Part shown: positions 1-12,420 of the stretch, piece by piece | Layout of the letters: each line of letters opens with the position of its first letter | Position numbering within the stretch: the stretch's first letter is position 1 | NCBI GenBank assembly: GCA_017416805.1 | Contig: JAFQBB010000051.1 | Span: 1 to 64,000 of the forward strand | Source of the DNA: Bacteroidaceae bacterium | Lineage (GTDB): Bacteria; Bacteroidota; Bacteroidia; Bacteroidales; Bacteroidaceae | DNA length: 64,000 bases | Direction of reading: 5' to 3' | Translations under genes and position numbers: made by a program | Notes under the pieces: generated by a model | Told to the model about the DNA's origin: nothing | The model's database searches: none | What the model saw: only the letters and a program-made list of their open reading frames with translations

Positions 1-504
1 GATGTCGCTATAACGCGTCTGATACACCTCCACAGGCATGTCGGTAGTCACTTTGATGCGGCCGGGCTTTTCGATGGGGCACTCTTTGTCACACACATAG
101 TCAGTGATGCTTCCTCCATGCAGAGTCAACAAATCAGCAGGTTTTCGTGTCTCCATGCTTATCATGGCCCATACCGAACGGGCATAACCGATAGGCTTGC
201 CCTCCTTGTTGAGGATGGCAAAGTTACGGTCGGTGAAGAGGCGATAGACATTCTCCACCCACGTCTCTATGTTGAACGGCTCGTACTGGCGGGGCATATC
301 CTCCAGTTCGATGGCCAGACGCGAGAGCACCCATGTATAGTGGTTCTCGTTCAATTCGGCAATGCCGAATCCACGGTCGGCAGCATGGAACCCAGCACAG
401 TTCAGCAAGTGGTTTCCCAGCACACCCATGGTCAGCCGTCCCGTAAAGTCCACGTGGAAAGGCTCGGCCACGAAATTGTATGTACCTATTTTATTGTCGG
501 GCAT
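1..504 (-). CDS. Acyl-ACP thioesterase (partial, C-terminus beyond window)
   Basis: The first 168 codons are present and the gene runs off the left edge, so the C-terminal half cannot be judged. The product would release free fatty acids from acyl carrier protein in the cytoplasm. The translation starts MPDNKIGTYNFVAEPFHVDF and continues with a hot-dog-fold pattern including NHLLNCAGFHAADRGFG and WVLSRLAIELEDMP, as in the acyl-ACP thioesterase family (Pfam Acyl-ACP_TE). The ATG at 504 overlaps the last 14 bases of ilvN, so the two are translationally linked in the ilv operon. Placement after ilvN is a recurring arrangement in Bacteroides; that it links branched-chain precursors to membrane fatty acids is inference. 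Confidence 0.87.
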   Translation of the reverse strand, partial: MPDNKIGTYNFVAEPFHVDFTGRLTMGVLGNHLLNCAGFHAADRGFGIAELNENHYTWVLSRLAIELEDMPRQYEPFNIETWVENVYRLFTDRNFAILNKEGKPIGYARSVWAMISMETRKPADLLTLHGGSITDYVCDKECPIEKPGRIKVTTDMPVEVYQTRYSDI

Positions 505-1054
505 ATTCCTTTTCCTTATTATATTTTTCTTCGCGGAAACTCAGATATTCATTCAATCGCTCGAAGCAGCTGGTAGAGATGGCCACACGTCCCGAGCGCA
601 CGAATTGCAACACGATACCGAACTGCTGGAGTTCTTCGTAGAGAGAGGTAATCTCCTCACTCATGCCGTTCTTCTCCACTATGCAGAAGGTCGGGTTCAC
701 TTCCACCACACGTGCCGCATGGCGACGGATGATTTTCGATGCTATGGGATTAGCCTGAAAACCTGGTGTAGCCAACTTATAGAGGGCAATCTCGTGCTGA
801 TAGATTTCATCATCGGTGAAATAGTTGGCCTGAAGGACATCAATCTTGCGCTCAATCTGCTTCACCACCTTCTTTATCTCATCCTCCGTACACCATGCAG
901 TGATAGTATATTTATGGATACCTTTAATGGATGATGCCGATACGTTCAGGCTCTCAATATTGATTTGCCGACGGGTGAATACGGCTGTCACTTGGTTCAA
1001 AAGTCCTGCGATATTCTCCGAGTGGACTATCAGTGTATATAATGTTTTATCCAT
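491..1054 (-). CDS. ilvN: Acetolactate synthase small (regulatory) subunit
   Basis: Regulatory subunit of acetohydroxyacid synthase, which stimulates IlvB and gives it valine feedback sensitivity. The 187-aa product has an N-terminal ACT domain (about residues 4-75; MDKTLYTLIVHSENIAGLLN, then NIESLNVSAS) and the small-subunit C-terminal domain. A longer frame opens at 1084 inside the end of ilvB. I chose the ATG at 1054 because the protein then begins directly with the ACT strand, as in the family. It lies 23 bp after ilvB and overlaps the thioesterase start, which supports one transcript. Confidence 0.93.
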   Translation of the reverse strand: MDKTLYTLIVHSENIAGLLNQVTAVFTRRQINIESLNVSASSIKGIHKYTITAWCTEDEIKKVVKQIERKIDVLQANYFTDDEIYQHEIALYKLATPGFQANPIASKIIRRHAARVVEVNPTFCIVEKNGMSEEITSLYEELQQFGIVLQFVRSGRVAISTSCFERLNEYLSFREEKYNKEKEYARQ

Positions 1055-1077
1055 ATATTCTCTTTTTATTTTAGCAC

Positions 1078-2772
1078 TCAACACTCCAATAACATCTTGT
1101 CAACCGTTCCTCCAGGAGGAGTCATAGGCATCACGTTGCCCTCTTCGATGACGCAGGCTTCAAGGAGGAAAGGTCCGTCGGTGTCGAGCATTTCGCGGAT
1201 AGCCTCACGCAGCTCCTCGCGCTCCGTCACACGGCGGGCAGGGATGTTGTAGGCGGCAGCTATCTGCATATAGTCGGGGTTCATCATCGGTGTAAAGGCA
1301 TAGCGGCGTCCGAAGAACATGGCCTGCCATTGGCGCACGTTGCCCAAGTAGTTGTTGTTCATCAGTATCATCTTCACCGGTGCCTGTTGCTCCATGATGG
1401 TACCCAGTTCCTGGATGTTCATCTGGAAACCACCGTCGCCCATGAAGACACACACCTTGCGGTCGGGGCGTCCGAAAGTGGCCCCGATGGCGGCAGGCAT
1501 GCCGAATCCCATCGTACCGAGTCCGCCCGAGGTGACGATGCTCCGTTCCTTGGTATATTTGAAGTAGCGGGCAGCCATCATCTGGTTCTGTCCCACATCG
1601 GTCACCAGGATGGCTTCGTGATGTGCTTCTTCGCTGACGGCACGCACCACCTCACCCATGTTCAGCGGTCCTTCCGTGGGGTGTATCTCGGGTTCTATGA
1701 CGCGCTTGTTCTCTATCTCCGTCTGTTCGGCAAAACTTTCAATCCATTCGGTGTGCTTGGCTTCGGCCACCAGGTCGGTCAGGGCCTTCAGCGTCAGTTT
1801 GCAATTGCCCAACACCTCCACATCCACCTTCACATTCTTGTTGAACTCTGAGGGGTCAATGTCCATGTGTATCACCTTCGCCTGCTTGGCATAGGTGGCC
1901 AAGTTGCCCGTCACGCGGTCGTCAAAGCGCATACCCACGGCGATGAGCACGTCGCACTCGTTGGTCTTCACGTTAGGGGCCAGATTACCGTGCATACCCA
2001 GCATACCCTTGTTCAGCGGATGGTCTGATGAAAGAGCCGAAAGGCCCAATAGCGTACATCCACATGGCAGGTCGGCCTTCTCCACCAAGGCGCGCAGTTC
2101 GGCTTGAGCACCGCCCAGCTCCACACCCTGTCCCACGAGCACCAGCGGACGCTTGGCCTCGTTGATGAGTGCGGCGGCCTCCTCGAGACAGCCCTCCTTC
2201 GGCAGGGGGTTGGGGTCGTAGCTACGGATGAAATCGACCGTAGCCGGTTCGTAATCCACCATCTCCACCTGTGCATTCTTGGTGAAGTCGAGCACTACGG
2301 GGCCCGGTCGTCCGTTCTTGGCCAAGAAGAAGGCACGGGCCACAGCCCAAGCAATGTCCTTGGCTGAGCGTATCTGATAGCTCCACTTGGTGATAGGCTG
2401 CGTGATGCTCACGAGGTCCACCTCTTGAAAGGCATCGGTACCCAGCATGCCTGTAGGCACCTGTCCGGCAATCACCACGATGGGTGTACTGTCAATCATG
2501 GCATCGGCAATGCCCGTCAGTGTGTTTGTTGCACCAGGTCCGCTGGTCACCAGGCACACCCCCACTTCGCCCGACACGCGGGCAAATCCCTGTGCGGCAT
2601 GGGTGGCGCCCTGTTCGTGGCGTACCAGTATGTGGTTCAACGTGTCGCGATGACCATAGAGGGCATCAAACGTGGGCATGATGCTACCGCCGGGATAGCC
2701 GAAGAGGGTCTTCACCCCCTGGTGCTCCAACGAGCGCATCAGCGCTTCTGCTCCTGTTATTTGTTGTTTCAT
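1078..2772 (-). CDS. ilvB: Acetolactate synthase large (catalytic) subunit
   Basis: Thiamine-diphosphate enzyme that condenses two pyruvates to acetolactate, or pyruvate with 2-oxobutyrate to acetohydroxybutyrate: the first committed step of Val/Leu/Ile synthesis. The 564 aa have the usual three-domain layout. The N-terminal domain has the FGYPGGSIMPTFDAL signature and catalytic Glu in RHEQGATHAAQG, the middle domain has the FAD-binding fold, and the C-terminal domain has the TPP motif GDGGFQMNIQEL...NNNYLG. Length is normal. It sits between ilvD upstream and ilvN downstream. Translation starts at MKQQITGAEALMRSLEHQG. Confidence 0.96.
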   Translation of the reverse strand: MKQQITGAEALMRSLEHQGVKTLFGYPGGSIMPTFDALYGHRDTLNHILVRHEQGATHAAQGFARVSGEVGVCLVTSGPGATNTLTGIADAMIDSTPIVVIAGQVPTGMLGTDAFQEVDLVSITQPITKWSYQIRSAKDIAWAVARAFFLAKNGRPGPVVLDFTKNAQVEMVDYEPATVDFIRSYDPNPLPKEGCLEEAAALINEAKRPLVLVGQGVELGGAQAELRALVEKADLPCGCTLLGLSALSSDHPLNKGMLGMHGNLAPNVKTNECDVLIAVGMRFDDRVTGNLATYAKQAKVIHMDIDPSEFNKNVKVDVEVLGNCKLTLKALTDLVAEAKHTEWIESFAEQTEIENKRVIEPEIHPTEGPLNMGEVVRAVSEEAHHEAILVTDVGQNQMMAARYFKYTKERSIVTSGGLGTMGFGMPAAIGATFGRPDRKVCVFMGDGGFQMNIQELGTIMEQQAPVKMILMNNNYLGNVRQWQAMFFGRRYAFTPMMNPDYMQIAAAYNIPARRVTEREELREAIREMLDTDGPFLLEACVIEEGNVMPMTPPGGTVDKMLLEC

Positions 2773-2963
2773 ATATGTTTTTTTTAGGAGTTAGAGAAGT
2801 TATCACTCGCTTTGCTCGTTAGAAGTTAAAGGAGTTATCGCAGGCTTGCCTGCTAGCCAAATGTATAGCAAAACTATTGTTTTTTTGCTTCGCTCAAGGG
2901 AACTTCTCCTAGGTCCAAAGGGCCGATAACTCCTTTAACTCCTGTATCTCCTTTATCTCCTTA
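2773..2963. repeat. ilvD-ilvB spacer with 17-bp inverted repeat
   Basis: Noncoding spacer inside the ilv operon. A perfect 17-bp inverted repeat (2824-2840 and 2924-2940; AGTTAAAGGAGTTATCG and its complement) surrounds low-complexity GGAGTTA / AACTCC-type sequence. No T-run follows either arm, so it does not look like a strong terminator. It may be a folded spacer that modulates or protects the mRNA, or simply one of the palindromic intergenic repeats common in this genome. Confidence 0.6.
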
Positions 2964-4766
2964 TTATTCTACTATTCTCACTCCACCCTTGTCGGCCGAG
3001 CTCACCATGCTGGCATAGGCGCGGAGGCTCTTGCTCACCACACGGTTGCGGGTCACGGGTGCCATGGGGCGCGCGGCCAACTCCTCGTCGCTCAGTTTCA
3101 CGTTGATGGTGCGATTCGGGATATCTATCTCTATGATGTCTCCATCCACTATCTTTCCGATGTTTCCACCGGCGGCGGCTTCCGGACTGATATGTCCGAT
3201 GCTCAATCCCGAGGTTCCCCCCGAGAAGCGTCCGTCGGTTATCAGAGCACACTCCTTGCCCAGGTGTTTCGATTTGATGTAGCTTGTGGGGTAAAGCATC
3301 TCCTGCATACCCGGTCCGCCCTTGGGACCTTCGTGGGTAATCACCACCACGTCGCCACTCACCACCTTGCCTCCCAAGATACCGTCGCAAGCAGCCTCTT
3401 GCGAGTCGAACACTTTGGCGGGGCCTGTAAACTTCCAGATGCTTTCGTCCACACCGGCGGTCTTCACCACACATCCGTCCTGTGCAATGTTACCCTTCAA
3501 CACGGCCAATCCACCATCCTTCGAGTAGGCATGGGCCAGGTCGCGGATACATCCCTCGGCACGGTCGGTATCCAACTCCTTGTAGTAAGTAGCTTGCGAA
3601 CCTAGTTTGATATTGAACTTGCGGGCGGGTGCACTGGTATAAATACGTTTCGCCTCGTCATCCAATTCTCCTTTATTTATGTCAAACTTCGCTATCGCCT
3701 CACCCAGCGTCATACCATCCACGCGGCACACGTCGGTGTCGAGCAGTCCGCCCTTGGAGAGTTCGGCCAGGATATTGAGGATACCACCGGCGCGATTCAC
3801 ATCCTCGATATGGTACTTCTGTGTGTTGGGTGCCACCTTGCAGAGGCAGGGCACACGGCGAGAAAGCATGTCGATGTCGTCCATCGTGAAGTCGACACCC
3901 GCCTCATTGGCAATGGCCAGCAGGTGGAGCACCGTGTTGGTGGAGCCTCCCATGGCAATGTCCAGTGTCATGGCATTGAGGAACGCCTCGCGCTTGGCGA
4001 TGCTCAGGGGGAGCACACTCTCGTCGCCCTCCTCGTAGTATCTGTAGGCATTCTTCACGATGAGTGCTGCTGCATCCTTGAAGAGACGGGTACGGTTCTC
4101 GTGCGTAGCCAGGATAGTACCGTTGCCAGGCAGGGCAAGGCCCAGAGCCTCGTTCAGGCAGTTCATCGAATTGGCCGTAAACATACCCGAGCAGCATCCG
4201 CATCCGGGGCAGGCGTGGTTCTCAATTTCGGCCACCTCGTCGTCGCTCACGCTCGTGTCGGCACTCTTGATCATGGCATCAATCAGGTCGAGGTGCTGTC
4301 CCTTCCATTCGCCGGCCTCCATCGGTCCGCCGCTCACAAACACCGTGGGGATGTTCAGCCTCATGGCAGCCATCAGCATACCCGGGGTAATCTTGTCGCA
4401 GTTCGAGATGCACACCAGTGCATCGGCCTTATGGGCGTTGCACATATACTCCACCGAGTCGGCAATAATGTCGCGGCTGGGCAGGGAGTAGAGCATACCG
4501 TCGTGTCCCATGGCGATGCCGTCGTCCACGGCAATGGTGTTGAACTCGGCGGCAAAGCATCCGAGCCGTTCAATCTCGGCCTTCACCAGCTGGCCTATCT
4601 CGTGCAAGTGGGTATGTCCGGGTACAAACTGGGTGAACGAATTGGCGATGGCAATGATGGGTTTTCCTATCATCTCGCGTTTCATGCCGTTGGCCACCCA
4701 GAGGGCACGTGCCCCTGCCATACGGCGTCCCTGTGTGCTGAATGCGCTACGCAATGGATGTTTCAT
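2964..4766 (-). CDS. ilvD: Dihydroxy-acid dehydratase
   Basis: Iron-sulfur dehydratase that converts 2,3-dihydroxy-3-methylbutanoate and -pentanoate to the 2-oxoacids in valine, leucine and isoleucine synthesis. The 600-aa product is of normal length. It shows the IlvD/Edd signatures [20 protein letters not shown] and [19 protein letters not shown] with the expected cluster cysteines, and the C-terminal signature [23 protein letters not shown]. It is the first structural gene of the operon and lies directly downstream of the attenuator at 4785-4815. The start [20 protein letters not shown] matches the family. Confidence 0.97.
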
Positions 4767-4784
4767 ATCATTCCTTTTTAACTC

Positions 4785-4815
4785 AAAAAGCCTCCCTCAC
4801 ATCTGTGAGAAAGGC
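4785..4815 (-). terminator. Intrinsic terminator of the ilv attenuator
   Basis: On the minus-strand transcript GCCTTTCTCAC (4815-4805), a 4-base loop AGAT and GTGAGGGAGGC (4800-4790) form an 11-bp stem with two G-U pairs, followed directly by five U (4789-4785). It lies 18 bp upstream of the ilvD start codon and about 60 bp after the leader peptide stop. This is the position expected of a conditional (attenuating) terminator. Confidence 0.88.
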
Positions 4816-4868
4816 CATCCGATTTACTCTTTATCTTTTATATCTTCGTACATTCCATATATATACAC

Positions 4869-4879
4869 GCCTTTCTCAC
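4869..4879 (-). promoter_or_regulatory. Antiterminator segment of the ilv attenuator
   Basis: The transcript segment GTGAGAAAGGC (4879-4869) is perfectly complementary over 11 nt to the 5' arm of the downstream terminator (4815-4805). It overlaps the stop codon of the leader peptide. A ribosome finishing the peptide would cover it and let the terminator form. A ribosome stalled at the Leu/Val codons upstream would leave it free to pair and prevent termination. Confidence 0.85.
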
Positions 4880-4974
4880 GCTCTTGATGTTTCCACCACG
4901 ACGTTGACTAGTAGTAGGCTGCTAATTCGTGCTATGTTTGTACTCAGAATCATATTTTCTCTTTGTTGTTTCAT
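4876..4974 (-). CDS. ilv operon leader peptide
   Basis: A 32-codon open frame between the promoter and ilvD. Its peptide contains the run S-S-L-L-L-V-N-V-V-V, with earlier Ile residues (IARIS and one more), so regulatory amino acids make up about a third of it. The codons are CTA CTA CTA GTC AAC GTC GTG GTG. The TGA stop lies inside the antiterminator segment. The ATG is 11 nt past the -7 element, so the 5' UTR is very short. Composition, position and the two mutually exclusive RNA structures mark it as a transcription-attenuation leader sensing Leu/Val (probably Ile) tRNA charging. It resembles the E. coli ilvGMEDA leader in logic only; the sequence is not similar. Confidence 0.88.
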   Translation of the reverse strand: MKQQRENMILSTNIARISSLLLVNVVVETSRA

Positions 4975-4984
4975 TTAACGACCG

Positions 4985-4992
4985 CAAAGGTA
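4985..4992 (-). promoter_or_regulatory. ilv operon promoter -7 element (TACCTTTG)
   Basis: TACCTTTG matches the Bacteroidetes -7 consensus TAnnTTTG on the minus strand. TTTG boxes lie upstream at spacings of 12 and 23, neither the ideal 19-21. It is the only good match ahead of the leader peptide. Confidence 0.75.
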
Positions 4993-5219
4993 AGTGTTTT
5001 CTTGCAAACAGCCAACAAATTCACGATATTTTTTCTGCTATATCTTTAAAATTGTAAGTCGAAGCAGGTTTTCGGCTACTTTTTGTCATGATGAGTGAGT
5101 TCTGGGTTCTGAGCCTTGAGTTCTGAGTGCCGCATGGCCAACTTAAATCCGCGTCATCTGCGTCATCTGCGTCTGAAAAATTAGTGCCGCATGGCCACTA
5201 GTCACTAGTCCCTAGTCCC
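4993..5219. other. Intergenic region between ilv leader and rlmH, short repeats
   Basis: No gene seen. It holds two copies of GTGCCGCATGGCCA (about 5128 and 5183), tandem TCATCTGCG units around 5155-5172, a GAGTTCTGAG direct repeat, and ACTAGTC/CCTAGTC repeats near 5197-5218. These resemble the low-complexity intergenic repeats elsewhere in the window. Confidence 0.6.
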
Positions 5220-5693
5220 TCACTCATGATGATACGGTTCCCCCCGTAATATCGTCATGGCGCGATAGATCTGCTCCACGAAGACGATGCGTATCATCTG
5301 GTGCGAGAAGGTCATCTTCGAGAGCGAGAGTTTCTCCTGTGCCGCCTGATAGATGCGGGGCGAGAATCCGTAGGGGCCACCGATGATGAACACCAGGCGC
5401 TTGCCCGTGGTGCTCAGCTTGCGCTCCATCCACGAGGCGAACTCCACCGAGCGGAACTCCCGTCCGTGCTCGTCCAGCAACACCACGGTGTCACCCGGCT
5501 GCAGGGCCTTCAGGATGAGGTCGGCCTCGCGCTCCTTCTGTTGCTCCTCGGTGAGGTTCTTGGTGTTCTTCAGTTCGGGGATTATTTCTACGTCGAAAGG
5601 AATGTAGTGCTTCGTGCGCTCCACATACTCATTGATGGCGGCTATATAATAAGGTTGTACCGTCCGCCCTACGGCCAATAGAATTGTCTTCAT
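5220..5693 (-). CDS. rlmH: 23S rRNA (pseudouridine-1915-N3)-methyltransferase RlmH
   Basis: SPOUT-class methyltransferase that uses SAM to methylate pseudouridine 1915 in helix 69 of 23S rRNA. The 157-aa length is typical. The C-terminal half carries the conserved IGGPYGF motif (IIGGPYGFSP), LSLSKMTFSHQMIRIVFVEQ and the terminal RAMTILRGEPYHHE that defines the family. The N-terminus MKTILLAVGRT is the usual first strand. It is monocistronic on the minus strand, with its own -7 element just upstream (5702-5709). Confidence 0.96.
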   Translation of the reverse strand: MKTILLAVGRTVQPYYIAAINEYVERTKHYIPFDVEIIPELKNTKNLTEEQQKEREADLILKALQPGDTVVLLDEHGREFRSVEFASWMERKLSTTGKRLVFIIGGPYGFSPRIYQAAQEKLSLSKMTFSHQMIRIVFVEQIYRAMTILRGEPYHHE

Positions 5694-5701
5694 CTTGGGT
5701 G

Positions 5702-5709
5702 CAAAGATA
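5702..5709 (-). promoter_or_regulatory. rlmH promoter -7 element (TATCTTTG)
   Basis: Exact TAnnTTTG match on the minus strand, 8 bp ahead of the rlmH ATG. The predicted mRNA would be nearly leaderless. No clear TTTG -33 box is visible. Confidence 0.65.
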
Positions 5710-5835
5710 ATGTTTTTTTATTGAAATATGTGGCATTATTTACACCTTGTTTAATCATTAATCTGAACATTACAAAAAACTTTCTGAAAATTCCTGTTGT
5801 TATTGCATAAAAAGAATCCTCAAAACCCTGCTTGA

Positions 5836-7299
5836 ATGACAACAAGAGCAATGATACTGGCTGGGGTCGCTCTGATGGGATACAACCTTGCCCAAGGACA
5901 ACCAGCACTGACTCGGGACAGCCTGTGCACACTGGCCGTACACTACAACAAACAACTGCTGATGGCCGAGGAACAGATGGACGCAGCACACTATGAACGG
6001 AAAGCGGCAAAGACGAATTTCCTGCCCAAACTGTCTGCCATGGGTACCTACATGTACAACCAGAAGGAGGTGTCGCTATTGAGTGACCGGCAGAAGGAGG
6101 AATTGAAGAGCATCGGGAGCCGTTTGGCCGGAACACTCTATGAGAGATTGGGTGAGCTGACAGGACAAAACACCCTGTTGGACAAATTGATACAGCCGCT
6201 GGTGTCTGTCGGCATAGCCTCTCCATTGGATGCTTTGGGACTTTCGTTGACCGAGGCGCTGAAAACCGACACCCGCAACATCTGGGCCGGCGGCGTCTCA
6301 CTGACACAACCCGTCTATATGGGTGGGAAGATACGCGCCTACTACAAGATTACCCGCTATGCCGAGCAACTGGCCTACACCCAATGGGAGGCCCGTCGCC
6401 AGGATGTCATACAGGAAGTCGATGCCACCTACTGGCTGGTGGTGTCGCTCTCAAAGCGGGAAGAACTGGCCGGAGATTTTGTGGAGCTGGTGCAGAATCT
6501 GGAAAACGATGTACGGAAAATGGCCGATGCCGGCATAGCGACACGCGCTGACGAGCTGGCCGTAAGGGTGAAAGTCAATGAGGCAAAAATGGCACTGACC
6601 CAAGCAAGCAACGGATTGAACATGAGCCGTATGCTGCTGTGCCAACTTTGTGGGCTCCCCTCCGACACCACCCTCCGGGTGGCCGATGAAATGACGGACG
6701 GCATCGCACTTGACCCCTCGGATGCCATAGGGCAGGCGGACATACAGACAACAAATCGGCCCGAACTGAAGAGTCTAGCCACCCTGCTTGAGATAACCCG
6801 CCAACAGGTGAACATCACCCGGGCTGCTTACCTGCCCACCATTGCACTGACGGGAAACTATCTGGCAAGCAACCCTTCATGCTTCAACGGGTTTGAACAC
6901 AAGTTGCGCGGAAGCTGGAACGTAGGGGTACAGGTAAGCATCCCGCTCTTCCAGTGGGGGGAAGGGACGTACAAGGTGAAAAAGAGCCGGACAGAGGTGA
7001 ATACCGCTAACCTGCGCCTGCAGGAAGCACGGGAAATGACAGAGTTGCAAGTGCACCAGTGCACCTACCAGCTGGATGAGGCTTACAAAAGGGTGGCACT
7101 GGCTGAAAGCAACCTGCCCAAAGCCGGAGAGAACCTGCGGTATGCCCAACTGGGATTCGCCGAAGGGGTGACCACCTACACCCAAGTCATGGAGGCCCAA
7201 ACCGCCTGGCTGGCGGCACAAGTCTCTCTGATTGACGCACAGATAAGTGTCAAGCTGGCCGAGTCGGAACTTCGGCGTGCATTGGGTACTTTGGAATAA
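5836..7299 (+). CDS. TolC-family outer membrane efflux protein
   Basis: Outer-membrane/periplasmic channel of a tripartite exporter. The 487 aa begin with a signal peptide (cleavage probably near residue 20, after AQGQ). The protein then shows the duplicated OEP pattern of long helices, with LTEALKTDTRNIWAGGVSLTQPVYMGGKI in the first half and GSWNVGVQVSIPLFQWGEGTYK in the second. Normal length for the family. It is the first gene of a four-gene plus-strand operon with an HlyD adaptor (37 bp later) and two ABC-2 permeases. Substrate unknown; small hydrophobic compounds or drugs are usual for such sets. Confidence 0.92.
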   Translation: MTTRAMILAGVALMGYNLAQGQPALTRDSLCTLAVHYNKQLLMAEEQMDAAHYERKAAKTNFLPKLSAMGTYMYNQKEVSLLSDRQKEELKSIGSRLAGTLYERLGELTGQNTLLDKLIQPLVSVGIASPLDALGLSLTEALKTDTRNIWAGGVSLTQPVYMGGKIRAYYKITRYAEQLAYTQWEARRQDVIQEVDATYWLVVSLSKREELAGDFVELVQNLENDVRKMADAGIATRADELAVRVKVNEAKMALTQASNGLNMSRMLLCQLCGLPSDTTLRVADEMTDGIALDPSDAIGQADIQTTNRPELKSLATLLEITRQQVNITRAAYLPTIALTGNYLASNPSCFNGFEHKLRGSWNVGVQVSIPLFQWGEGTYKVKKSRTEVNTANLRLQEAREMTELQVHQCTYQLDEAYKRVALAESNLPKAGENLRYAQLGFAEGVTTYTQVMEAQTAWLAAQVSLIDAQISVKLAESELRRALGTLE

Positions 7300-7335
7300 A
7301 AACGGATACAATGAACTTGAATAAAAATACAGGAT

Positions 7336-8334
7336 ATGGACAAAAAGAAAGAACAACACAGGAGCTGCATGTATGTATTGGGGCTGCTGGTATCATGTCT
7401 GCTTGGCGTGAGCCTCATAGGACTGCTTTTCCTCGGTTATCAGGAAGAATACATCGAAGGAGAAGCCGAAACCGACGAATACCGTGTGTCAAGCAAAGTC
7501 CCCGGACGTATTCTCGCCTACTATGTGAGCGAGGGAGACCGTGTGAAAGCCGGTGACACGCTGGTAAGGCTGACGGCACCGGACATCATGGCCAAATATT
7601 CCCAGGCGGAAGCCATACAATCGGCCGCAGAAGCCTTGAATGAAAAGAGCCATAGCCCTGCACGCATCGAAGTGTTGCAATCGGCCTATGAGATGTGGCA
7701 GAAGGCTTTGGCAGGACAGGTGATTGCTGAGAAGACTTTCAGCCGTATAGAACGCCTGTACCAGGAGGGGGTCATGAGTGCCCAGAAAAGGGATGAAGCC
7801 AAAGCAAATCTCGATGCCATGCTGGCCACCGAGAAGGCCGCGCGCTGGCAGTATGAAATGGCCCGGAAAGGGGCACAGGTCGAAGACAAGGAGATCACCG
7901 CCGCTCAGGTAAGACAGGCGCAGGGAGGGGTGGAGGAAGTGTTGTCATATGTGGACGAGATGATACTGACGGCCCCCATGGATGGTGAAGTGTCTGAAAT
8001 ATATCCGCTACGGGGCGAACTGGTGGGTAGCGGTGCGCCCATCATGAGCATAATGCTGACGGACGACCTGTGGGTCAGTTTCAATATGCGCGAAGATCAT
8101 CTGAAAGACTATCCCGTAGGCCGCTCTTTCCAGGCATATTCGCCCGCCCTAGAGATGAACATTCCCCTGCGCGTGACACACCTGAAAGACCGGGGGACGT
8201 ATGCCGCATGGAAAGCCACCAAGGTGACGGGGGATTTTGACCTGAAGACCTTCGAGGTGAAGGCTGTCCCTACCATACCGGTCAAGGGGCTGTGTCCGGG
8301 CATGAGTCTTGTCATCATCTCTACGGAAAAATAA
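7336..8334 (+). CDS. HlyD/EmrA-family periplasmic adaptor
   Basis: Membrane fusion protein that joins the inner-membrane permeases to the TolC channel. The 332 aa have one N-terminal membrane segment (about residues 14-36, VLGLLVSCLLGVSLIGLLFL). A split biotinyl-lipoyl domain follows, with first half VSSKVPGRILAYYVSEGDRV and second half TAPMDGEVSEIYPLRGELV, separated by a coiled-coil hairpin of about 120 residues. A beta-barrel domain follows. It is shorter than typical EmrA. It lies between the TolC gene and the permeases, consistent with one complex. Confidence 0.9.
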   Translation: MDKKKEQHRSCMYVLGLLVSCLLGVSLIGLLFLGYQEEYIEGEAETDEYRVSSKVPGRILAYYVSEGDRVKAGDTLVRLTAPDIMAKYSQAEAIQSAAEALNEKSHSPARIEVLQSAYEMWQKALAGQVIAEKTFSRIERLYQEGVMSAQKRDEAKANLDAMLATEKAARWQYEMARKGAQVEDKEITAAQVRQAQGGVEEVLSYVDEMILTAPMDGEVSEIYPLRGELVGSGAPIMSIMLTDDLWVSFNMREDHLKDYPVGRSFQAYSPALEMNIPLRVTHLKDRGTYAAWKATKVTGDFDLKTFEVKAVPTIPVKGLCPGMSLVIISTEK

Positions 8335-8358
8335 CAAAAAGACAAGGAGGGAAGAATC

Positions 8359-9522
8359 ATGATGCGCCTCATCGTACACACGGCTCGAAGGGAATGTCAG
8401 AGGATGATACACGACCCTATATACCTTGTCTGTATCCTCTGTCCGGCCATTGCCTGTTACCTGCTGTTCACCTCGCTGATGTCTGACGGATTACCCGTCA
8501 AGCTGCCCGCCGGCATGGTGGACAGGGACGGTTCGTCCATGTCGCGCAACATCACACGGGCGTTGGATGCCTACCAGTACACCGACATCGTGGGACATTA
8601 CCCGACCGCGCACAAAGCTTTCGAAACGATGCGGCAGGGACGGATATACGGATTCTACTACCTGCCGGAGGGAATGGAGGCAGACGCACTGGACGGACGC
8701 CAGCCGACCGTATCGTTCTACCTTAACTATGCTTACCTGATTGCAGGTTCGCTGCTGTATAAGGATATGCGTACCATGGCCGAACTGACCGATGCAAGTG
8801 TGGCCGAGGCACAACTCTCTGCCCGCGGAACCGAAGAGTGGCAGGTGAAGCCGGTGTTACAACCCATTGCCATCGACACACACCCGTTGGACAATCCTTG
8901 GCTGAACTACTCCGTCTATCTGAACAACACCCTGCTACCCGGAGTGCTGCTGCTGACGGTCATGCTGGTGACGGTATATTCCATAGGTACTGAGATGAAA
9001 TACCGCACCGCCGGCCAATGGCTGCAACAGAACGGGGGAAGAATCATACCTGCCCTGGCGGGAAAACTGCTCCCCCAGACCTTGCTGTTCAGCCTCATGG
9101 CCATGCTGTATGTCAGTGTACTCTACGGGTATCTCCATTTCCCGTTGAACGGAGGACTGCTCCCCATGATGTCGGCTTCCATTCTAGCGGTATCGGCCAC
9201 ACAGGCCTTCGGCGTATTCCTTTTCTGTCTGTTTCCCTGGATGAGGATGGCCATGAGTGCAGCCTCCTTATGGGGAGTACTGTCGTTCTCCATCTCGGGG
9301 TTCAGCTTTCCCGCCATGGCCATGAATCCGGCCCTACAGGCTCTGAACCATCTGTTTCCGCTCAGACACTATTTCCTCATTTATGCCGGAAGTGCCCTGA
9401 ATGGCGCTCCCTTCAGTGATGTACTTCCTTCCTTTTTAGCTCTCACCATTTTCCTGCTTCTGCCACTTCTCTTCCTCAAGAGACTGAAGCGGAAGCTGCT
9501 GACCTATGTATATATGGAATGA
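8359..9522 (+). CDS. ABC-2 type transporter permease (first)
   Basis: Inner-membrane permease of the ABC-2 (DrrB/YhhJ-like) type, 387 aa. One N-terminal membrane segment (CILCPAIACYLLFTSLM) is followed by a long extracytoplasmic domain (about residues 50-190), then five to six hydrophobic segments in the C-terminal half. An AAGGAGGG-type Shine-Dalgarno sequence sits at about 8344, unusual here, just before the tandem ATG codons at 8359/8362. The ATG at 9526 of the next permease follows its stop by 3 bp. No ATP-binding cassette gene is in the operon, so the energising subunit is either encoded elsewhere or absent. Confidence 0.88.
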   Translation: MMRLIVHTARRECQRMIHDPIYLVCILCPAIACYLLFTSLMSDGLPVKLPAGMVDRDGSSMSRNITRALDAYQYTDIVGHYPTAHKAFETMRQGRIYGFYYLPEGMEADALDGRQPTVSFYLNYAYLIAGSLLYKDMRTMAELTDASVAEAQLSARGTEEWQVKPVLQPIAIDTHPLDNPWLNYSVYLNNTLLPGVLLLTVMLVTVYSIGTEMKYRTAGQWLQQNGGRIIPALAGKLLPQTLLFSLMAMLYVSVLYGYLHFPLNGGLLPMMSASILAVSATQAFGVFLFCLFPWMRMAMSAASLWGVLSFSISGFSFPAMAMNPALQALNHLFPLRHYFLIYAGSALNGAPFSDVLPSFLALTIFLLLPLLFLKRLKRKLLTYVYME

Positions 9523-9525
9523 CGT

Positions 9526-10665
9526 ATGAAGACTCTGTTCAACTATTGCCAGTATGAGCTCCGGCGTATCCTGCACGACGAAGGGACACTGATATTCATG
9601 CTGCTGGTCCCGCTCGGATATCCTATTCTATACACGTTCATTTACACCGACGAAGTGGTGCGCCAGGTGCCTGCTGTGGCCGTTAACCTCTCAGACTCGT
9701 CCATGGGGAGGGAATTTCTTCGTCAGGTGGATGCAAGCCCCGACGTGGACATTATACTCGAAACGGGGAGTATGGACGAAGCCAAAAAAATGCTCAGGGC
9801 ACAAGAAGCCTATGGCATCATATACCTGCCCGGTGACTTCAACAAGCGGTTGCAACGTGGAGAACAGGCACACGTAAGCCTTTTCTGCGACATGAGTGGG
9901 TTGCTCTACTATAAAGCTCTGGCCGTCACATGTACAGACGTGTCGTTAAAGATGAATGGGAATATCCGCTTGCAGATGATGCCCGGCCTGACCGTCCGGC
10001 AGGAGGAGGTGACAAGCCTTCCGGTGAAATACGAAAGTATCGCGGCCTTCAATCCGCAGACAGGCTTCGCCAGTTTCCTTATTCCGGCCGTACTGGTACT
10101 CATCATCCAACAGACCTTGTTGCTGGGCACAGGATTGTTGGCCGGCACCGACCGCGATCGGGGCTTGTTCCCCTACCGGGAATCTACAGTCAGGATGTGG
10201 GGAAAGGGATTGGCTTGTCTGCTGCTTTATCTCCCGACGAGTGCCTATATGCTGATTGTCGTGCCCCACCTGTTCCACCTGCCCCAACTGGCGCATGCTT
10301 CCACTCTAGCCCTCTTCATGGTGCCTTATCTGCTGGCTTGTCTCTTCCTGGCCCTGACGATGGAGGTCTTCATCCCCAATCGCGAAGCATCCATGTTGGT
10401 CTTTGTCTGCACGTCCGTCCCTCTCCTTTTCCTTTCGGGAATTTCGTGGCCGGGGAGTGATATCCCGATGGGGTGGAAATTGTTCTCCTACCTGTATCCC
10501 TCCACATTCGGAATCAACGGATTTGTACGCATCAACACGATGGGGGCTTCGCTCGCTGATGTGCAGACAGAATTCATAGCCTTGTGGATACAGGCAATCA
10601 CCTACTATACAACGGCATGGGGAGTAAGAAAATATGGTAACTATTTGTTACACAGAAGTGCATAA
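9526..10665 (+). CDS. ABC-2 type transporter permease (second)
   Basis: Second ABC-2 permease, 379 aa, with the same layout as its upstream neighbour: an N-terminal membrane segment (LIFMLLVPLGYPILYTFIYT), a large periplasmic loop, and a C-terminal membrane domain from about residue 180. It includes LFLSGISWPGSDIPMGWKLFSYLYPST, typical of the family. The two permeases probably form a heterodimer. It is the last gene of the exporter operon; the next gene has its own promoter. Confidence 0.88.
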   Translation: MKTLFNYCQYELRRILHDEGTLIFMLLVPLGYPILYTFIYTDEVVRQVPAVAVNLSDSSMGREFLRQVDASPDVDIILETGSMDEAKKMLRAQEAYGIIYLPGDFNKRLQRGEQAHVSLFCDMSGLLYYKALAVTCTDVSLKMNGNIRLQMMPGLTVRQEEVTSLPVKYESIAAFNPQTGFASFLIPAVLVLIIQQTLLLGTGLLAGTDRDRGLFPYRESTVRMWGKGLACLLLYLPTSAYMLIVVPHLFHLPQLAHASTLALFMVPYLLACLFLALTMEVFIPNREASMLVFVCTSVPLLFLSGISWPGSDIPMGWKLFSYLYPSTFGINGFVRINTMGASLADVQTEFIALWIQAITYYTTAWGVRKYGNYLLHRSA

Positions 10666-10742
10666 TTGCGGATAATATTATAAATATTTGTTTTTAATTA
10701 AGTAAAAAAAATCCAAACGATAGTTTTATGACGAATTTGTTG

Positions 10743-10750
10743 TACTTTTG
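10743..10750 (+). promoter_or_regulatory. Promoter -7 element (TACTTTTG) ahead of the GH43 chimera
   Basis: Matches TAnnTTTG on the plus strand, 84 bp before the ATG at 10835. The surrounding AT-rich stretch has no perfect TTTG at -33. The promoter of the decayed gene appears to be intact. Confidence 0.6.
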
Positions 10751-10834
10751 CCGCGTCGGTTGTCATTTCTGTTGAAGTGGAGTTATACTGGTATTAAAGA
10801 CAAAACTTAAACCTTTTATCAGAGCCATTGAATC

Positions 10835-11632
10835 ATGTATCTAAGGAGTTTCATTGTAGCGTTAGTTTTTGCTGCCGTTCATTCGTTTGCCGTATTTGCC
10901 CAGCAGACGTCTGTGTTTGGAGATTTAGGGAATGGTATGTTCCGCAATCCTGTGTTGCCATCCGATTACAGCGACCCGGATGTTATCCGGGTGGGTGAGG
11001 ATTATTACGGAATAGCCTCTACTTTCTTCTTCTCGCCGGGCATGGTCGTTATCCATTCAAAAGATTTGGTTCATTGGGAAATCATCAATCATGTGGTGGA
11101 TGACATATCGTTTTTGAACCCCGAATTGGACTGGACGAAGATGAAGGGGTACTATAACGGTGTATGGGCCGGCTCATTGCGTTACCACCAAGGTACGTTC
11201 TATTGTCATTTTGCAACTCCGCGCGGAGGCTGGTTTGTCGCCACAACTACGGACATCCGTGGCAAATGGGAGGTACAAGCCATGAAAGATGCCAACGGCA
11301 GGGAACTGCGCGGGCGCGGATGGGATGATGTTTGCCCGCTATGGGACGATGACGGACAAGCCTATATCATAGCCAGCAATTTTGGGAAACACTGGTTCCC
11401 ACACATCTATAAAATGAGTTGGGACAAGACACTCTACGCTTTCGTCATAAGATGGGATGGGGCACCCTTCACCATTCAGGCTGCCAATGGGCAAGACATC
11501 AAGGATATCAGCCTGCTGACTGATGGCAGTCCTGTCACATTCAAGCAGACAGATAAAGGTGTGCGGATTGAGGCAAACATGACCGACGTCACCGACCCTG
11601 CCGTCGCATTCAGAATTAGGTTGAAGCACTGA
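10835..11632 (+). pseudogene. Chimeric remnant: GH43 N-terminus fused to GH29-like C-terminus
   Basis: An open frame of 265 codons that appears to be a deletion fusion. Residues 1-23 are a signal peptide. Residues about 35-195 match the first blades of a GH43 beta-xylosidase/arabinofuranosidase, with the catalytic-base region NPVLPSDYSDPDVIRVGEDY and WAGSLRYHQGTFYCHFA. The match breaks off at YKMSWD, before the part that carries the general-acid glutamate. It continues in frame with KTLYAFVIRWDG...ISLLTDG...VTFKQTDKG...AVAFRIRLKH, which reads like the C-terminal beta-sandwich of alpha-L-fucosidases (GH29). Signal peptide and promoter are present, but a working glycosidase is unlikely. The GH29 assignment is by pattern only. 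Confidence 0.7.
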
Positions 11633-11790
11633 TATATGCACAAGGCCGTATGCTGTCTGAATGGGAAGAGACTTTTTCATATCTACAGACAAGCAGCGGC
11701 CTTACCAATAAAAACAATATCGAACACTTGCAGACGATCTGTTATCCTGTTATGAAGAAGTTCTTACAGTTCATCTCTTCAGGTTTATAG
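11620..11790 (+). pseudogene. Possible 3' remnant of an unidentified gene
   Basis: Overlapping the end of the chimera in another frame, an open stretch of 56 codons runs from 11620 to a TAG at 11788-11790 without a start of its own. It reads like a helical protein end (RMLSEWEETFSYLQ; then TICYPVMKKFLQFI). It may be the surviving tail of a third gene lost in the same rearrangement. I do not recognise it. Confidence 0.3.
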
Positions 11791-11810
11791 TCAAAATGTT
11801 GTAATATGCT

Positions 11811-11859
11811 AATGTGCCAATATGCTAATGACGCGTTGTCATTAGCATATTGGCACATT
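11811..11859. repeat. Perfect 22-bp inverted repeat, possible bidirectional terminator
   Basis: Arms at 11811-11832 and 11838-11859 are perfectly complementary around the 5-base loop GCGTT. The arms consist of the AATGTGCCAATATGCTAAT repeat that recurs in this window. It lies between the end of the chimera (plus) and the end of the oxidoreductase operon (minus), where a hairpin would insulate converging transcripts. No long T-run follows. Confidence 0.75.
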
Positions 11860-11877
11860 GTTAAATTGGTTGGTACA

Positions 11878-12420
11878 TCAGCACATTTTTACAATCTCCA
11901 TGCCTTTACGGATTGCCTCCTCGTTCATGGGGATGAGGTGGTGATGACGTTCGGGAAGGGTCTTGCGTAGGGCTTTCACCACACTGTCGATGGTAACCAT
12001 TGGTTTCAATTTCAGCAATCCCCCGAGGACTATCATGTTGAAAGCTTTGGCATTTCCTATTTCTGCTGCTGCGTCCATAGCATCGATGCGATACACTTGG
12101 ATGTCCTTGCGGGTGGGAGGTTCAGCGATGCCATAACCATCGTACATCAAGATGCCGCCCGGTTTCACTTTGTTTTCAAACTTTTCCAATGATGGCTGAT
12201 TCAGAATGATGGCCACATCATATTGGCTGAGGATAGGCGATGAGATACGGTCGTCGCTCACGATAACGGTCACGTTGGCTGTACCGCCGCGCTGTTCGGG
12301 GCCGTAAGCAGGCATCCAACTCACTTCCTTGTCTTCCATCAATCCTGAGTAAGCTAAAATCTTACCCATAGAAAGTACACCTTGTCCGCCGAATCCGGCT
12401 ATAATGATTTCTTCTTTCAT
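11878..12420 (-). CDS. 2-oxoacid:ferredoxin oxidoreductase, gamma subunit
   Basis: Gamma subunit (180 aa) of a CoA-acylating 2-oxoacid:ferredoxin oxidoreductase of the VOR/KOR type. It has the family start MKEEIIIAGFGGQGVLSMGKIL, the AYGPEQRGGTANVTVIVSD signature and SQYDVAIILNQPSL. It is the last gene of the minus-strand operon. It is separated from the beta subunit by an inserted four-helix-bundle gene and AATATGCTAATRTGCCA-type repeats; in most genomes beta and gamma are adjacent. Confidence 0.92.
   Translation of the reverse strand: MKEEIIIAGFGGQGVLSMGKILAYSGLMEDKEVSWMPAYGPEQRGGTANVTVIVSDDRISSPILSQYDVAIILNQPSLEKFENKVKPGGILMYDGYGIAEPPTRKDIQVYRIDAMDAAAEIGNAKAFNMIVLGGLLKLKPMVTIDSVVKALRKTLPERHHHLIPMNEEAIRKGMEIVKMC

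Follow-up and report, generated by a model that had tools for sequence, protein, structure and literature searches.

The window analysed here is a stretch of 64,000 nucleotides of contig JAFQBB010000051.1 from a Bacteroidaceae bacterium. Its minus strand carries the operon ilvD-ilvB-ilvN, of which the first gene is ilvD, encoding dihydroxy-acid dehydratase (2964..4766; NCBIfam NF009103 and TIGR00110 above cut-off). It is followed by ilvB and ilvN, encoding the large and the small subunit of acetolactate synthase (1078..2772 and 491..1084; TIGR00118 and TIGR00119, both above cut-off). Upstream of ilvD, at 4785..4992 on the same strand, lies a putative attenuator region in which a promoter, a leader ORF, an antiterminator and a terminator follow one another in that order. 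Between the end of the terminator's T run and the ilvD ATG (4766) lie 18 nt, and rlmH ends at 5220, upstream of the ilv promoter. In the spacer that separates rlmH from this promoter, two copies of the 14-mer GGCCATGCGGCACT can be seen by eye (5196-5183 and 5139-5126), with other short repeats around them. On the opposite strand, at 5836-9522 (+), three genes resemble TolC, an HlyD/EmrA-type adaptor and an ABC-2 permease by NCBIfam matches below the cut-offs; this trio is likely to be an efflux cluster.

The -7 promoter element TACCTTTG (4985..4992, minus strand) matches the Bacteroides consensus TAnnTTTG quoted in a passage of PMC7366714. The element is unchanged across seven aligned leaders, and its position leads us to expect a transcription start at about 4983-4979. 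The initial annotation had read a 32-codon leader peptide with S-S-L-L-L-V-N-V-V-V from an ATG at 4974, on an mRNA starting a few bases before that codon and hence almost without a 5' UTR. An ORF from 4974 and the Leu/Val run are both present. However, the ATG at 4974 is missing in all six same-clade relatives aligned, which do keep both the -7 element and the peptide; the aligned leaders share an ATG start at 4953, shifted one codon downstream in four of these relatives. A survey of distances bears on the same question. Of 66 distinct leaders, 59 carry TAnnTTTG ahead of their start, and in all 59 at least 18 nt separate the end of the element from the start, the starts in this survey being the detector's choice with the shortest ATG-led form preferred. 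In the window, this distance is 31 nt for 4953 versus 10 nt for 4974.

Because the ATG is absent in relatives and the promoter would lie so close, the 4974 start is improbable, and near-leaderless initiation was rejected on the strength of the seven-leader alignment and these distances. The leader is most likely MILSTNIARISSLLLVNVVVETSRA, of 25 codons plus TGA (4876..4953, minus strand; stop codon 4878-4876), rather than the 32-codon form, and its 5' UTR would be about 26-30 nt given a transcription start at 4983-4979. With the transcription start placed from sequence, the leader begins farther downstream than the limit of about 10 nt for a leaderless start. According to a passage of PMC7366714, the most frequent 5' UTR length in B. 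thetaiotaomicron is 23 nt, with about 3.7% of 5' UTRs shorter than 10 nt. Of 65 leader starts, just two have a Shine-Dalgarno-like motif within 18 nt, where shuffled letters would give 5.2; the 20-nt stretches ahead of these starts contain 52% A. Translation initiation in Bacteroidota is largely independent of Shine-Dalgarno pairing.

Within the leader ORF, the control codons Leu-Leu-Leu-Val-Asn-Val-Val-Val occupy 4894..4917 on the minus strand (CTA CTA CTA GTC AAC GTC GTG GTG). All three Leu codons of the run are the rare CTA, which makes up 3% of Leu codons in the 27 window ORFs of at least 300 aa (antisense ORFs included). The control run of the E. coli leu leader likewise contains rare Leu codons. 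Taken together, the conserved start, frame and codon run indirectly suggest that the leader is translated.

The antiterminator GTGAGAAAGGC (4869..4879, minus strand) overlaps the leader TGA and is a perfect Watson-Crick complement, over 11 nt, of the arm GCCTTTCTCAC (4805..4815, minus strand). This same arm is the 5' arm of the terminator, which is completed on that strand by a loop (4801..4804), the 3' arm GTGAGGGAGGC (4790..4800) and a T5 run (4785..4789). As both structures use the arm 4815-4805, they are mutually exclusive. Folding of the two states gave -16.8 kcal/mol (z -2.3) for a truncated antiterminator form and -18.9 kcal/mol (z -3.5) for the terminator, compared with -49.6 kcal/mol (z -3.2) for the entire leader. 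When the 80-nt region was shuffled 2000 times, the energy of the antiterminator:arm duplex (-20.8 kcal/mol) was never reached. An ORF equally rich in Ile, Leu and Val arose in 6 of 2000 shuffles, and the full detector described below, in which every part is required, was passed by none of 2000 shuffles. Thus, the structural claims of the initial annotation stand: an antiterminator that overlaps the stop codon and pairs over 11 nt with the terminator's 5' arm, an 11-bp terminator with U5 ending 18 bp before ilvD, and a full set of parts that are visible and mutually consistent.

Terminators often separate a gene from the operon that follows it, and the hairpin alone would fit a simpler reading in which it merely terminates upstream transcripts, for example those of rlmH, while the small ORF and the complementarity owe their existence to chance or drift. 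A simple terminator scan of window positions 1-12000, in which 10 sites are expected by chance, found three terminator-like sites, the strongest of which is the ilv terminator. The conserved -7 element between rlmH and the hairpin argues against this simpler reading, as does the company that the terminator keeps at other ilvD genes.

The upstream DNA of 115 ilvD genes was examined: 35 loci of the same genus or family (window included) and 80 named loci, with a few genomes shared by the two sets. We used a detector that requires a terminator, an Ile/Leu/Val-rich ORF and an antiterminator. It was positive at 73 of the 115 upstreams, among them the window's own, whereas shuffled controls gave 2 positives in 1150. 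Positives account for 34 of the 35 loci of the genus or family, in which the family loci are the best-scoring among 264 matching genomes of 299 and are hence biased to close kin, and for 39 of the 67 named Bacteroidota loci (assigned by record title). The 13 named loci from other phyla (Desulfobulbaceae and kin, spirochaetes, Fibrobacter and Akkermansiaceae) gave no detection. Bacteroides, Phocaeicola, Paludibacter, Alistipes, Odoribacter, Marinifilum and Prolixibacteraceae are represented among the positives.

The switch is not universal, since 42 of the 115 upstreams failed the detector, 28 of the named Bacteroidota loci among them. Many of these 28 belong to Prevotellaceae and other Bacteroidaceae, several from the rumen, and control of ilvD may differ at such loci. 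The misses include L048, L050, L053, L054, L057, L061-L064, L066, L067, L069 and L070, at which IlvD is 75-83% identical to that of the window. A few loci counted as misses, such as L036 and L112, look attenuator-like by eye.

Leader peptides vary widely between the detected loci, with richness in Ile, Leu and Val retained. Many relatives carry Ile codons within the control run, as in the mixed Ile/Leu/Val run NLAVLHIIRVVV. Within Bacteroidaceae the control run is conserved at the DNA level (CGTCGTGGT); distant relatives keep the Ile/Leu/Val-rich peptide and the three arms, the remaining sequence being different. The anatomy first described in the window is present at 73 of 115 ilvD upstreams, its own among them, and the loss of peptide codons or paired arms in relatives, named by the initial annotation as grounds for abandoning attenuation, was not what we found. 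An exact pattern search within the genus gave a single match in each of 9 of 15 genomes, always at the ilvD leader; as a finder of attenuators elsewhere it was superseded by a covariance model.

The 73 detector matches were reduced to 66 distinct leaders by removal of duplicates, and 56 relatives were placed in an alignment (A1), ten of the distinct leaders, the window's included, being excluded for long gaps or odd arms. In the terminator core, 98.8% of pair cells hold standard pairs and five pairs show double changes (0 of 500 shuffles for each), while the number of further pair types was reached by 70 of 500 shuffles. The antiterminator core is 92.2% paired with three double-changed pairs, a number reached in 6 of 500 shuffles. 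The covariation score of this core was reached by 1 of 500 shuffles and also by a control slid by +2 columns (0.116 versus 0.114). Column-wise covariation of the antiterminator is therefore modest.

Stronger evidence comes from the energies of permuted partners. Across the 66 distinct loci the antiterminator binds its own arm at -18.1 kcal/mol, compared with -15.3 kcal/mol for permuted partners, and for 22 hand-picked diverse loci the values are -17.7 and -12.3 kcal/mol; none of 5000 permutations reached the observed value in either set, although the permutations ignore kinship, and relatedness inflates both this and the covariation tests. At the median locus 15% of foreign arms outbind the own arm, as a conserved core would produce. 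There is no preference for the own arm at L065 and little at L074. This fit between cognate arms, together with the leader ORF and antiterminator that accompany the terminator at so many ilvD genes, leaves a mere terminator of upstream transcripts with a negligible share of probability in our judgement.

The spacing of the parts is compatible with control by a ribosome. The distance from the first base of the last Ile, Leu or Val codon to the first paired base of the antiterminator has a median of 13 nt over 66 loci, half of which fall within 9-15 nt around it, and in the window it is 17 nt. At 4 of the 66 loci, where the fit is poorer, the antiterminator paired by the program starts less than 4 nt from that codon. 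The reach of a ribosome beyond the codon in its A site is about 12 nt. If stalled at the last Val codon (4896), a ribosome would leave 4879 free, and if it stood at the stop codon (4878), it would cover the entire 4879-4869 segment. The ilv leader revealed no hairpin that would compete for the antiterminator; a ribosome positioned on the stop codon would be enough to mask the antiterminator. In attenuators of the E. coli type, a pausing hairpin synchronises ribosome and polymerase. A weakly supported candidate for a pausing hairpin lies in the control run (UGGUG-GAAA-CAUCA, 4898-4885), with 78.3% of cells paired over the 56 relatives. None of 500 shuffles reached this pairing, and 386 of 500 reached its number of double-changed pairs.

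Given the observed anatomy, exclusivity, conservation and spacing, we are highly confident that ilvD-ilvB-ilvN are under the control of a ribosome-mediated transcription attenuator. The proposal of ilv attenuation originally made for this locus is well supported by the comparative evidence of 73 of 115 upstreams, cognate arms, covariation and spacing. We infer the steps of leader translation, stalling on uncharged tRNA, read-through and amino acid sensing from the sequence, as follows. Transcription would begin just past the TAnnTTTG promoter, and a ribosome would load on the 25-codon leader. When charged Leu- and Val-tRNA (and probably Ile-tRNA) are plentiful, this ribosome would reach the stop codon and cover 4879-4869; the free arm 4815-4805 would then form the terminator, and RNA polymerase would stop at 4789-4785. 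When such tRNA is short, the ribosome would stall in the Leu/Val run, upstream of a free 4879-4869 segment, which would pair with 4815-4805 and allow the polymerase to continue into ilvD. Ile is probably sensed besides Leu and Val, since relatives mix all three codons in the control run.

Termination would release a leader of about 200 nt, and this could itself be the product, as a small RNA or a trans-acting peptide, with attenuation secondary; a trans role of the leader peptide peTrpL in Sinorhizobium is reported in a passage of PMC7298713. However, the peptide sequence varies so widely among the detected leaders, with Ile/Leu/Val content alone kept, and an antiterminator would be so purposeless in such a scheme, that we consider it extremely improbable. 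A role in trans added to attenuation would still be compatible with these data.

Further candidate leaders precede other operons of this genome. RF01692 (Bacteroid-trp) gave one genomic match, before trpB (L118; gene named by eye), with a leader peptide, MRTLSNTYWWWRRLQLQQS, that contains WWW. The hisG gene (L128) is preceded by the leader candidate MTQTFIHHHHHLPVD with HHHHH and then a terminator. An Ile/Leu-rich candidate, MNQTFNIINLLSIIILLSHIVGSECYAVC, followed by a CCTTTCTCAC terminator, precedes leuA (L129, read at the best of three leuA-family matches). Such a leader is present at all four operons inspected (ilv, his, leu and trp), with the antiterminator scored for ilv alone. The leader codons fit the amino acid of the operon for his, trp and leu. 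Only the trp leader of the four matched an Rfam family.

To survey the phylum, we used a covariance model (R1) made from the 56 relatives without the window but with its close kin L004 and L007. R1 recovered the window leader at E 3.1e-13 and the leuA leader of the same genome at E 6.3e-6, and it matched in 53 of 61 relatives at E <= 1. At E <= 0.01 matches were obtained in 178 of 392 sampled phylum genomes; we decided against counting all of these as attenuators, because a weak match may be no more than an ordinary terminator and some positions were hit on both strands. Thirty phylum loci, one per genome, were read (L132-L161). The next ORF of at least 100 aa is ilvD at 13 loci (one of them the window), ilvE at eight, trpE at three, leuA and thrA at two each and ilvN at one, with one unassigned (L142). 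Nine of the proteins were checked against NCBIfam and the other genes were named by N-terminal likeness. Matches above cut-off were obtained for ilvD, ilvE (three), leuA and trpE, and one below cut-off for ilvN; the two thrA proteins, truncated where the locus ends, matched aspartate kinase above and bifunctional ThrA below cut-off.

A Trp run occurs in the leader before every trpE (3 of the 30 loci), the thrA leaders read TTTTISTTTTIS and TIITTIITT, and leaders of ilv and leu genes are rich in Ile, Leu and Val. At six loci (L138, L140, L141, L145, L147 and L160), called from leader peptides and terminators, tandem Ile/Val-rich leaders, each with its own terminator, occupy about 330 nt ahead of ilvE or ilvN in distant Bacteroidota. 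The two tandem units of L138 are near copies. At L142 (about 1500-2100) a typical Ile/Val-rich attenuator is followed by small ORFs and no biosynthetic gene; the second of these resembles, by eye, a Doc-type toxin partner.

These leaders also bear on whether the ilv leader senses a signal other than tRNA, as a riboswitch, a T-box or a protein-bound attenuator would, its conserved sequence being coding by chance. The conservation of CGTCGTGGT within Bacteroidaceae, and the small hairpin weakly supported there (78.3% paired), would suit such a sensor. However, no Rfam family, riboswitch and T-box classes included, matched the window at its gathering score, and RF01692 does not match the ilv leader (window, L002). 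Furthermore, distant relatives keep the Ile/Leu/Val-rich peptide and the three arms while other sequence has diverged, and the codons of other leaders track their operon (His, Trp, Thr/Ile). We therefore think a non-tRNA sensor very unlikely and retain ribosome-mediated attenuation as the preferred reading.

More broadly, the balance tips slightly towards attenuation as a general, perhaps the main, control of amino acid operons in Bacteroidota (ilv, leu, his, trp and thr), often with a CCTTTCTC-type terminator core, with leader starts devoid of Shine-Dalgarno-like motifs and, in some lineages, with tandem units before ilvE or ilvN.

The ilv leader resembles those of E. coli ilvGMEDA and leuABCD in its Ile/Leu/Val leader, its mutually exclusive antiterminator and intrinsic terminator and its branched-chain operon. 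It differs in its Bacteroides-type promoter, in the stop codon placed inside the antiterminator and in the lack of a detected competitor hairpin, and compared by description the two show no apparent sequence relation. Two surveys, Vitreschak 2004 and Lopatovskaya 2010, reportedly predict attenuators for branched-chain, His, Thr and Trp operons, and the abstract of the former is said to name Bacteroidetes/Chlorobi.

The initial annotation called attenuation of this sort best known in Proteobacteria, which is fair, but leader-peptide attenuation is not new to Bacteroidota. Already on record is RF01692, described by Rfam as a 'Bacteroidete tryptophan peptide leader RNA' and present in Table 1 of PMC2864571; it is likewise a peptide-leader element of this phylum, with a copy before trpB in this genome, but it has Trp codons, serves a different operon and does not match the ilv leader. 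In Flavobacterium psychrophilum, a member of another class or family by lineage, 'strong clues' of leader-peptide attenuation upstream of amino acid operons are reported in PMC9723704, the inferred mechanism being the same; the word 'ilv' is absent from the main text of that paper. A passage of PMC7366714 describes B. thetaiotaomicron sORFs as 'reminiscent of leader peptides'. Corynebacterium ilvBNC is also a branched-chain operon with a regulatory leader, but belongs to the Actinobacteria; of the two papers on it (PMC11857589, PMC10272879), passages of one describe a conserved uORF and of the other hairpins, and one is titled as a three-hairpin model. In the open-access literature searched, we found no description of this ilvD leader and no paper that joins leader peptide, attenuation, Bacteroides and ilvD. 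Term searches of the available text of PMC13323073 and PMC10931766 returned nothing on attenuation or coupling in Bacteroidota.

The mechanism is textbook, and similar switches elsewhere in Bacteroidota are little documented. In this genome, four operons (ilv, leu, his and trp) gain a concrete regulatory annotation. Attenuation requires that a ribosome start promptly on the nascent leader and stay close to RNA polymerase; in Bacillus subtilis, according to a passage of PMC13323073, ribosomes are outrun by polymerases. The window leader offers a compact reporter for testing such coupling. Many leader-peptide attenuators across Bacteroidota would argue for transcription-translation coupling there, and if attenuation is indeed general in the phylum, these bacteria must couple translation closely to transcription.
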